IMG/VR virus record: IMGVR_UViG_3300040801_003073
Coordinates: 1 to 41,956 of that record
Strand: one strand, 5' to 3'
DNA length: 41,956 nucleotides
Origin: a virus
Both the position numbers and the translations under genes were made by a program. Of this stretch, positions 33,527 to 41,200 are shown piece by piece. The stretch's first letter is position 1. Every line of letters starts with the position of its first letter. The notes under the pieces are model-generated. The model saw only the letters and a list, made by a program, of their open reading frames with translations, made no database searches and was not told the origin of the DNA.

Positions 33527-33571
33527 GCCTCGCTAATATTGTTACTGCTAACACAACAAAAAAAACGAGGC
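33527..33571. promoter_or_regulatory. Inverted repeat overlapping the initiator RBS
   Basis: GCCTCG (33527-33532) and CGAGGC (33566-33571) form a 6-bp stem. The inner TTGTTA...TAACACAA can extend the structure. The 3' arm includes the GAGG Shine-Dalgarno of the initiator. It could hide the RBS or serve as an operator; which depends on where transcription starts. Confidence 0.4.
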
Positions 33572-33580
33572 ATATATTTC

Positions 33581-34927
33581 ATGACTGCATTATATAAACA
33601 TTCTAAAGATAGTCAACACCTAAATAACACTTTCTTAAATAAAAGTATATCATCTACTATTCACGATTGCAAAAGTTTTCACAGTGGCTTTACAATAATT
33701 GAAAATTCATTATTTAGACGCGATAGAAATTTATCAGAGTTAGCAACTAGAATAAAAACAAAAACATTACAATATAAATTACATACAGTTACTATTGAAT
33801 GGTTATATAAATCATTTGAAGAAAAAATCTGTAAAAAAACATTAATTAAAGGCTGTAATGAATTAGTAGAAAATAAAAAATGGAAATCAGAAAAAGTTCA
33901 AGTTGGTAAATTTAAACATAAATATGTATATACAATATTACCTGAGGAAGTTACTGGCAATTATTTCTTTTATGATAATCAAATATTGAATAATAATAAT
34001 TTATCTCATAATGCATTTTTAATAGCTGGATACTTACAAAGTCATGATGAAAGTTTTTATCATAACTTAACATTAGAAAAAATAGGATATGATACTGGTA
34101 TTAGAAAAAATCCTAAAGGTAATAAAATAACTATAACAAACGCATTAAATGAATTATTAGAATGCCAAGCAATAAATCGTAAAATAATTAGAGAAATTAA
34201 TAATGGTAAAAAGGTAAATAAAACTATTTATATTATTAATAAGAATTATTCTATTGTGGATAACTCTGTGGATAAGTATGTGGATAACTTTTCTAATGAG
34301 GCCGAAATTAAAAAATCTACTAGCGCCCAAAACTATACAATATATAATTCGACCCCTAATAAAGATAAGAATATTATTAAGAAAAAAGAAAAAGAAAAGA
34401 ATTTTAAAAAAGTTTTAAATAAATCTATAAAGGTTTCAGATGCAATCGCAGACGTTAATAATGACCTACAACTAGAAGTTACCAAAAATGAAGTTTTTGA
34501 CCCTCTGGTTGAACTCGAATCTGATAATATACGGGAGGCGGTTATTGTAGATAAGGATATTTTAGATAATGCCTTATGGGTTAATAGGCCTTATACCCTA
34601 GCTAACCTATGTAATCCGTTTAGTAAAAATGGTGCTTTAAATCCTAGTGTAGCTTTTACGATAAAAAAACTATCTGGTAGAGAATTTTCTTATCCTGAAT
34701 TACATAAATTAATTTGTAATATTCAAATTAGGTACCTAAATAAACATGAAAAACTGCCTGTTTATAGTAATCTCAATAACTTAATAGTATCAGTTATAGA
34801 AATGATAAAAAAAGAAAAACGCAAAGTGGACGATATCCGAACTTATGATAATTGGATGCCACAAGATTTACGTAATGCTATAGCAAGATCAAAATATGAG
34901 TTTACTGAATATCAGATTGAGTGGTAA
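33581..34927 (+). CDS. Replication initiator protein with internal origin
   Basis: The 448-aa protein has a likely winged-helix region (SHNAFLIAGYLQSHDES...LTLEKIGYDTGIRKNPKGNK...NALNELLECQAINRK), as in phage and plasmid initiators. A lysine-rich linker and a C-terminal helical domain follow (RPYTLANLCNPFSKNGALNP...LHKLICNIQIRYLNKHEKLP). In the middle it encodes VDNSVDKYVDNF, which is three exact DnaA boxes in DNA. I chose ATG 33581 with the GAGG RBS over an in-frame TTG at 33539. It is divergent from the recombination operon. Initiator is inferred from the boxes and fold; no Rep family was recognised with certainty. Confidence 0.65.
   Translation: MTALYKHSKDSQHLNNTFLNKSISSTIHDCKSFHSGFTIIENSLFRRDRNLSELATRIKTKTLQYKLHTVTIEWLYKSFEEKICKKTLIKGCNELVENKKWKSEKVQVGKFKHKYVYTILPEEVTGNYFFYDNQILNNNNLSHNAFLIAGYLQSHDESFYHNLTLEKIGYDTGIRKNPKGNKITITNALNELLECQAINRKIIREINNGKKVNKTIYIINKNYSIVDNSVDKYVDNFSNEAEIKKSTSAQNYTIYNSTPNKDKNIIKKKEKEKNFKKVLNKSIKVSDAIADVNNDLQLEVTKNEVFDPLVELESDNIREAVIVDKDILDNALWVNRPYTLANLCNPFSKNGALNPSVAFTIKKLSGREFSYPELHKLICNIQIRYLNKHEKLPVYSNLNNLIVSVIEMIKKEKRKVDDIRTYDNWMPQDLRNAIARSKYEFTEYQIEW
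34255..34287. other. Candidate replication origin: three DnaA boxes in tandem
   Basis: TGTGGATAA occurs at 34255, 34267 and 34279, a period of exactly 12 bp. Each is the perfect complement of the TTATCCACA DnaA box. The surroundings are AT-rich, as needed for unwinding. They lie inside the initiator gene. Confidence 0.75.
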
Positions 34928-35744: not shown

Positions 35745-36074
35745 ATGGCAAGCTATAGATTAAATTTTGTAAAAAATATCTTAGAAAAAATAATACCACC
35801 TACAAAACCAATAGATAAAACAGGTGGTGTTTATGATACGTATTATGATTTAAAAGAAAGGGGCTTAATTTTAATTGTTTCTAATGGTGGAAATAAAACT
35901 TTTTATCTATATAAAAAAATTAAAAATAATCCTGAAAGAATAAAATTAGGAGGCTTTCCTGAATTATCTATATATGAAGCAAGAAAATTGGCTCAACAAA
36001 ATAAAAGATTAATTATTTCTGGAATAAATCCTAACCATGAAAAAAGAAAACTAAAAAGAATAACTAACGCTTAG
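35745..36074 (+). CDS. Stand-alone integrase arm-type DNA-binding domain
   Basis: The 109-aa protein matches the N-terminal arm-binding domain (DUF4102) of P4-type tyrosine integrases: GVYDTYYDLKERGLILIVSN, GGNKTFYLYKKI, KLGGFPELSIYEARKLAQQN, and GINPNHEKRK. The catalytic domain (R...HxxR...Y) is missing; after residue 109 the frame stops and the next genes run leftward. It may be a decayed integrase, or a small DNA-binding regulator or directionality factor. No intact integrase exists elsewhere in the window. It overlaps the next leftward gene by 11 nt at the 3' ends. Confidence 0.72.
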   Translation: MASYRLNFVKNILEKIIPPTKPIDKTGGVYDTYYDLKERGLILIVSNGGNKTFYLYKKIKNNPERIKLGGFPELSIYEARKLAQQNKRLIISGINPNHEKRKLKRITNA

Positions 36075-37488: not shown

Positions 37489-38247
37489 ATGGATTTACAA
37501 CAAGCTTTAGATAAAATATTATTTTTAAAAAATAAAATTGCAGAACAAGAAACTATCATTACTAATTTAAAAAATAAATATAATACACTTACCGTTAAAT
37601 TAAATAATGCTAATACAAATTATAAAGATTTATCAAATAGGTTTGATGAACAAAAATATGAGCTTGAAAGAATACATTATAATAATCAATTGGATTTAAA
37701 AGAATATAAGTCTAAAATAAGTGATTTAAAAATTGAAATTGAAAGCAAATCACCTGATTATATAAGAAAAAATATTGAATATGAATTTAGAAATGAGGTT
37801 AATAATTTAAAACAACGATTAGTAAATTATGAATTATTATTTGAATCAATGAATGGCGAAAATAATTTAGATTTATTAATTATGGATTTAAAAGAATTAA
37901 CAGAAAAATATAAAAATAAAAATATAGGAAAAATTTTTAATTGGAAAAATAACAGTGTTTTAGCATTGCCTTTGGATGATTTAGATATTACTATCCGCAC
38001 ATCAAATTGTTTGAAAAATGAAGGTATAAAATATATAGGCGATTTAATTCAATATAGCGAAAAAGAATTATTGCGTATACCCAACTTTGGCAGAAAATCA
38101 TTAAATGAATTAAAGACTATAGTAAGAAATTTACATTTAAATTTTGGGGCAACTATTTATAATTGGCCTCCTGAAAATATAGAAGAATTATCTATACAAG
38201 TTTTAGATAAATACAATGAAATTATTCATAGGATATCATATGCATGA
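37489..38247 (+). CDS. Coiled-coil protein fused to an RNA polymerase alpha C-terminal domain
   Basis: In this 252-aa protein residues ~1-120 are a long coiled coil. Residues ~159-233 are an unmistakable RNAP alpha-CTD: PLDDLDITIRTSNCLKNEGI, KYIGDLIQYSEKELLRIPNF, GRKSLNELKTIV, ...NWPPENI. By alignment from memory with E. coli alpha, R170, N173, C174, K176, G201, K203, S204 and E207 correspond to R265, N268, C269, K271, G296, K298, S299 and E302. These residues bind UP-element DNA and activators. The alpha N-terminal (assembly) domain is absent. It may bind UP elements, compete with host alpha or bridge regulators; that is inference. It overlaps the next gene by 8 nt. Confidence 0.88.
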   Translation: MDLQQALDKILFLKNKIAEQETIITNLKNKYNTLTVKLNNANTNYKDLSNRFDEQKYELERIHYNNQLDLKEYKSKISDLKIEIESKSPDYIRKNIEYEFRNEVNNLKQRLVNYELLFESMNGENNLDLLIMDLKELTEKYKNKNIGKIFNWKNNSVLALPLDDLDITIRTSNCLKNEGIKYIGDLIQYSEKELLRIPNFGRKSLNELKTIVRNLHLNFGATIYNWPPENIEELSIQVLDKYNEIIHRISYA

Positions 38248-40591: not shown

Positions 40592-41200
40592 ATGGCTGTT
40601 ATTGGATATGCCCGCATCTCTACCCCATATCAAAGTCTAGAATTACAAATACAATCTTTAAATAAACATGGTTGCGAAAAGATTTATAGCGAAACTGTTA
40701 GCGGCGCTAAAACCTTAAGACCTCAATTCCAAGCCTGCCTAGATTATTTACGTGCTGGCGATACCATAGTGGTCTGGAAGCTAGATAGGTTAGCTCGTAC
40801 ATTAAAAGAACTTTTACATCTCATAAAATATTTTGAAGATCATGAAATACATTTTGTATCTTTAACTGAAAATATCGACACTAAAACCGCAATAGGCAAA
40901 TTTGCATTCCATATGTGTGCATCTATGATCGAATTCGAACGTGATGTTATTCGTGAGCGTGTTACCGCTGGCCTTAAAGCAAGTCGTAAACGTGGGCGTA
41001 AAGGTGGACGCAAATATAAGTTCGATAAAAATAAAAGAGAACGTATATATGATTTATATGAAGTAAAACAAATGCCAGCTTCTGAAGTAGGCGAATTATT
41101 TGGTATAAAGAGACACCTCGTGTATAAATATGTGCGTGAACTTAAAACAGAGAAAAAAAACCTTGAATTGAGTTTAGAAAAATTAGAAACTGGTAGTTAG
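40592..41200 (+). CDS. Serine recombinase, resolvase/invertase family
   Basis: The 202-aa protein has the whole catalytic domain: Y6-A-R8-I-S10 with S10 as nucleophile, the WKLDRLAR block (D65, R66, R69), LTENIDTKTAIGKF and the E-helix MIEFERDVIRERVTAGLKA. A C-terminal helix-turn-helix follows (MPASEVGELFGIKRHLVYKY). The size matches Hin/Gin invertases and Tn3 resolvases rather than large serine integrases. It may invert a segment, resolve dimers or control tail-fibre choice. No inverted fibre cassette is evident here. It has its own promoter. Confidence 0.93.
   Translation: MAVIGYARISTPYQSLELQIQSLNKHGCEKIYSETVSGAKTLRPQFQACLDYLRAGDTIVVWKLDRLARTLKELLHLIKYFEDHEIHFVSLTENIDTKTAIGKFAFHMCASMIEFERDVIRERVTAGLKASRKRGRKGGRKYKFDKNKRERIYDLYEVKQMPASEVGELFGIKRHLVYKYVRELKTEKKNLELSLEKLETGS

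Follow-up and report, generated by a model that had tools for sequence, protein, structure and literature searches.

Three exact DnaA boxes lie at a 12-bp period inside P0001, a 448-aa open reading frame (ORF) of a phage. Comparison with related and unrelated sequences supports well the view that the box bases are kept by selection on the DNA, while the protein appears to accommodate the array as a pliable VDN/VDK linker. We consider it likely that the array provides docking sites for host DnaA at the phage origin of replication, that this origin lies here, within the linker of the initiator, and that P0001 is the initiator in question; each of these elements (P0001 as initiator, DnaA binding at the array, replication start at the array) we infer. 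Throughout, the window means the whole 41,956-bp stretch of DNA that was analysed, a linear virus record with 27% GC.

The box array and its gene

An earlier note on this DNA had described three exact boxes at a 12-bp period within a gene, and exact matching returned the coordinates and reading frame that it claimed. The boxes, and one degenerate relative, are as follows:

34255-34263, minus strand: DnaA box 1, exact TTATCCACA (TGTGGATAA on the plus strand), coding V226-D227 and the AA of N228
34267-34275, minus strand: DnaA box 2, exact TTATCCACA, 3 bp from box 1, coding V230-D231-K232
34279-34287, minus strand: DnaA box 3, exact TTATCCACA, 3 bp from box 2, coding V234-D235-N236
34546-34554, minus strand: degenerate box TTATCTACA, one mismatch, in the same strand and frame as the array, coding V-D-K at residue 323

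All three boxes of the array share one orientation, with gaps of 3 bp, which is the form of a cooperative (double-box type) DnaA array, i.e. two or more consensus 9-mers in the same orientation with a 2-3 bp gap. In frame they read ATT GTG GAT AAC TCT GTG GAT AAG TAT GTG GAT AAC TTT, giving the peptide I-VDN-S-VDK-Y-VDN-F at residues 225-237 of the ORF; the 9-mers are identical and the spacer triplets between them are unlike each other (CTC, GTA, CTT). Neither strand of the window holds a further exact DnaA box, and from the base composition of the window one would expect 0.81 exact boxes and 8e-11 box triples at a 12-bp period. One-mismatch matches number 17 elsewhere in the window, which is the chance level, and the degenerate box at 34546-34554 is at best a possible weak DnaA site, such matches being expected by chance. 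The single-stranded fold of the array region is nothing out of the ordinary, and Rfam returned no match.

The gene that carries the array can be divided as follows, the segments being read from sequence pattern and a low-confidence model:

33527-33571, plus strand: hairpin GCCTCG/CGAGGC (RNA fold -12 kcal/mol, z -2.1; sequence)
33581-34927, plus strand: P0001, a probable phage replication initiator of 448 aa (translation)
residues ~29-125 and ~119-225 of P0001: two winged-helix-like segments
from residue 226 of P0001: box-coding linker
residues ~325-440 of P0001: helical C-terminal part

This layout, in which an unstructured box-coding linker lies between two winged-helix segments and a helical C-terminal part, is suggested by the sequence pattern, by the secondary structure of the model and by one weak family match (residues 127-217, below), the AlphaFold models themselves (pLDDT 33 for the whole protein, 38 for one domain) being uninformative. 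The mechanical ORF list begins P0001 at TTG 33539, but translation more likely starts at ATG 33581, which has a GAGG ten bases before it. That GAGG ribosome-binding site lies within the 3' arm of the hairpin at 33527-33571, which could control initiator translation.

The earlier note's naming of P0001 as an initiator found no direct confirmation, with no significant match in Pfam, PHROG or PDB. Weak matches are to phrog_11718 (residues 127-217, E 0.019), which the recognised, box-bearing initiator-type gene L245 matches at 2e-12, and to HTH_36 (E 0.72); neither the O family (PF04492 or an O-like PHROG) nor the Rep_3 and RPA plasmid initiators (PF01051, PF10134) gave a match. We also tried a home-made profile of box-bearing initiators, which scored P0001 no better than shuffles. 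Protein searches of viral and genome contigs, phage and plasmid records and 369 genomes of one class returned no relatives. When syntenic initiators were sought through the neighbouring RecT and RecE, the sole close sibling contig (L316, found by RecT search at 88% identity) was without the initiator region. The window proteins searched included no other recognisable replication initiator, and P0001 is most likely the initiator of this phage.

Genes recognised in the window include terminase, RecE, RecT, a resolvase, an integrase fragment and an endolysin, with RecE and RecT directly before P0001 on the minus strand. Three further genes were observed in passing. A phage gene at 37489-38247 clearly matches the C-terminal domain of the RNA polymerase alpha subunit (PF03118, E 2e-21), and its product is a possible transcription-hijacking factor; the 109-aa ORF at 35745-36074 holds an integrase arm-DNA-binding domain alone (PF13356), with no catalytic domain recognised nearby, and is possibly a broken integrase or a regulator; and a full serine resolvase is encoded at 40592-41200.

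Evidence for selection on the box bases

GTG makes up 8.3% of the valine codons in the window (n=735), and in the 448-aa ORF it is used at all three array valines but at only 1 of the 21 others, so that the claim of a codon used against the phage's own preference is confirmed. With the array peptide fixed and codons drawn as the phage uses them, the chance of three exact boxes is ~8e-5, and none of the nine other VD[NK] tripeptides in the window genes examined is an exact box.

The pattern that would speak against selection on the DNA, i.e. peptide repeats kept and box bases lost, was looked for in the L015 family, which comprises other phage genes, the window ORF itself being without detectable relatives. 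Its 13 homologs, 78-100% identical, were collected by protein and not by boxes. The number of VD[NK] units varies from 1 to 3 per gene, and each retained unit is an exact box (xxT GTG GAT AA), while the choice between N and K, which depends on the base directly beyond the 9-mer, varies; the opposite pattern was thus found, with the box bases kept.

Viral contigs at large point the same way. Three boxes at a 12-bp period occur in at least 119 stretches in IMG/VR, against 3 stretches for a synonymous, GC-matched control array (TGTTGACAA three times, same peptide), and it is this near-absence of the control array, together with the L015 family, that supports well the earlier suggestion of DNA-level selection. 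An any-codon scan for VD[NK]xVD[NK]xVD[NK] found exact triple boxes at 38 of 80 among the matches listed. In 19 non-redundant ORFs (at least 140 aa) from a peptide-only scan, 34 of 57 VD[NK] units are exact boxes and a further 8 of the 57 are the near-box TGTTGATAA; the units that are neither are mostly simple peptide repeats. Non-redundant ORFs with tandem boxes use the VDN frame in 26 of 38 cases, though five of the six frames are open. Because of this frame preference and the L015 pattern, selection apparently acts on the DNA, with the array sited at positions where a soft, charged linker is acceptable to the protein.

Box arrays in other phage and plasmid genes

In 117 viral contigs surveyed for exact head-to-tail boxes, with gaps of 0-30 allowed, the gaps cluster at 2-4, 11-14 and 23-25 bp, a helical phasing. 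E. coli DnaA favours box pairs 2 or 3 bp apart (PMC11317965), which the viral phasing fits. The open-licence literature searched offered no account of phage initiators whose DnaA boxes are translated as VDN/VDK.

Of the 26 non-redundant VDN-frame ORFs, 12 match replication-initiation, O-like or DnaD-like PHROGs (E <=1e-3) and a further 2 are winged-helix proteins. Among 100 control ORFs drawn from those contigs, none of these families reached two matches, the lowest number at which the comparison lists a family. At its C-terminus, one box-bearing phage initiator (L077:1314-2495) matches DnaA domain I (PF11638, E 7e-7), possibly in mimicry of the helicase-recruiting end of DnaA.

The 200 bp that follow the array in the initiator-type VDN genes contain an unusually unstable AT-rich 50-mer (Fisher p 9e-7), typically 50-100 bp past the array, with no instability signal upstream (p 0.46); other VDN genes have no unstable segment after the array (p 0.74). 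Lys/Asn-rich linkers may account for part of this downstream AT signal, since the synonymous AT excess in the initiator set is modest (z 2.7). When coding and non-coding arrays were pooled, the AT profile rose only weakly.

Two unrelated plasmid initiators, which were found through the box search and so serve as examples and not as a count, end in VD[NK]SVD[NK], coded in each by a pair of exact boxes at a 12-bp period: the PF10134 protein (RPA) of Methylocystis parvus pMpar-1 and the replication protein of Methylomagnum ishizawai pRS11DPr1. As a counter-sample we took 14 phage genes picked, by protein similarity alone, for homology to the L245 or L067 winged-helix domain, and found among them no exact box and no VDN. 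Several of their linkers code other direct repeats, such as three units of 15 or 30 bp, and AT-rich repeats of 15-17 bp come after these. Boxes are therefore optional in initiators, as homologs of a box-bearing initiator domain can be without them.

Box arrays are also present outside initiator genes, so that an array alone is no proof of an origin. In L036, L044, L103 and L115, arrays on the opposite strand encode YPQ repeats (e.g. MAYTGFPATYPQTYPQSYPQ) close to the N-terminus of small proteins, and in a microvirus, an ssDNA phage (L336:2001-2034), the array begins just past the replication initiator gene. T5-like phages (matches H43-H90) have box arrays in non-coding DNA, annotated as terminal repeats in some records, and DnaA boxes have been mentioned at the T5 injection stop signal (PMC13250531). 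Wolbachia phage WO (AB036666.1, 24417-24438) has a tandem box-like sequence within its baseplate J gene.

The array as a candidate origin

Two segments beside the window array are candidates for the unwinding element that an origin would need:

34357-34406: AT-rich low-stability segment after the array, candidate DNA-unwinding element (99th percentile of window instability)
34194-34248: second AT-rich unstable segment, immediately upstream of the array, alternative candidate for the unwinding element (99.8th percentile)

The first lies 69 bp past the array, on the same side and at the same distance as in other box-bearing initiator genes, and the 60-mer from 34365 is 90% AT; individually it is not significant in this AT-rich phage (p ~0.12, 50-mer test), and the window has no synonymous AT excess downstream of the array. 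The second reaches p 0.01-0.04 against random window positions, and no counterpart on the left side of the array was seen in other genes. The surroundings of the array and linker hold no other short-period tandem repeat and no iteron-like repeats. GC skew, which had been proposed as a check, tracks gene strand in this phage and gives no help in placing an origin.

On the origin reading, host DnaA would bind the array cooperatively, as a filament, because with 3-bp gaps successive boxes lie on one side of the helix, about a turn from each other. DnaA on the array would mark the phage origin and help to melt neighbouring AT-rich DNA (34357-34406, or 34194-34248), after which the initiator made from the same DNA would help to load the host helicase; the DnaA domain I at the L077 C-terminus would suit such a helicase-delivery role. 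The proposal of an origin inside the initiator gene is made plausible by the wider set, through the initiator enrichment and the downstream AT-rich segment; for the window itself, with its orphan protein and an AT flank at p ~0.12, we infer it.

An in-gene origin is known already (ori-lambda, pSK41), and host DnaA boxes as its sites are what differs here. Ori-lambda lies within the O gene, with iterons and an AT-rich tract mid-gene, as also in Stx phages, where two extra iterons in O add 13 residues to the linker (PMC7466680). The window gene resembles lambda O in its tandem putative protein-binding sites mid-gene, in a linker between N-terminal DNA-binding and C-terminal parts, and box-bearing genes resemble it in a site copy number that varies and alters linker length; the AT-rich DNA near the window array may be a counterpart of the lambda tract. 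The lambda parallel drawn by the earlier note needs correcting as to the nature of the sites: the lambda sites are ~18-bp iterons bound by O, whereas the window has 9-bp host DnaA boxes, no other iteron-like repeats and a protein not recognisably of the O family. RepA_N plasmids of the pSK41 type likewise have a central origin in rep (PMC5703833), inside initiator coding sequence that is dispensable as protein, but their repeats are initiator-specific, and a review reports no DnaA boxes detected in staphylococcal plasmids (PMC5703833). The TP901-1-type rep genes (L330) and relatives, homologous to the box-bearing L245, are winged-helix initiators in which the linker codes direct repeats and then AT-rich repeats, the linker repeats not being DnaA boxes. 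Bacterial oriC and double DnaA boxes share the consensus TTATCCACA, the head-to-tail arrangement, the 3-bp gap and AT-rich DNA nearby (PMC11317965, PMC8287927), while the window array is coding DNA of a phage gene. The pMpar-1 and pRS11DPr1 initiator genes share with the window exact boxes 12 bp apart that are read as VD[NK]SVD[NK], but belong to plasmids and unrelated initiator families, with the array at the C-terminal end.

The array could instead serve DnaA-responsive control, modulating or blocking initiator transcription or soaking up DnaA and so delaying host initiation, with the origin elsewhere. In E. coli DnaA does bind tandem boxes at regulatory sites (PMC11317965), arrays also stand in T5-like terminal repeats and other non-origin places, and no phage iterons are visible beside the window array. 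We nevertheless regard such control as unlikely, as recurrence specifically in replication initiators, with the AT-rich segment on a fixed side, fits an origin better, as do boxes in plasmid initiators of other families, and box-free homologous linkers carry other direct repeats and then AT-rich repeats, as an origin slot would.

It is very improbable, in our judgement, that the boxes are a by-product of a V-D-N/K-x repeat favoured in the protein as a flexible or DnaB/DnaA-contacting linker motif: the synonymous codons are fixed to the box bases despite the rarity of GTG, the synonymous array is almost absent, the box bases stay constant while N/K varies just outside them, and homologous initiators lack the peptide altogether. 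The preference for the VDN frame where four others are open as well does indicate a peptide at least better tolerated, and some box-free VDK repeats exist, as simple repeats. Tandem 12-mers are common in coding DNA, and the window has other low-score tandem repeats; yet a functionless short duplication of a box-like 12-mer deserves hardly any credence for boxes that are the only exact ones in the genome, combine identical 9-mers with unlike spacers and recur as the same array across unrelated genes.

Returning to the array as an origin, the linker past the winged-helix domain looks like a site that holds either element-specific repeats or host DnaA boxes. We lean slightly towards the broader view that the initiator linker is a general origin slot in phages and plasmids, in which many unrelated elements have convergently put VDN/VDK-readable host boxes in place of iterons, tying replication start to host DnaA through coding DNA. 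In-gene boxes of this kind recur in replication genes of many unrelated phages and plasmids, and phages seem to place part of their replication-start signal in protein-coding DNA. Silent mutation can remove the boxes and leave the protein unchanged, which makes reliance on host DnaA testable. If the reading is true, TGTGGATAA at a 12-bp period (equivalent to VD[NK]xVD[NK]) would locate candidate origins and initiators in uncultured phages, even where the proteins match nothing, the orphan of this window included, and many phages may rely on, or compete for, host DnaA.
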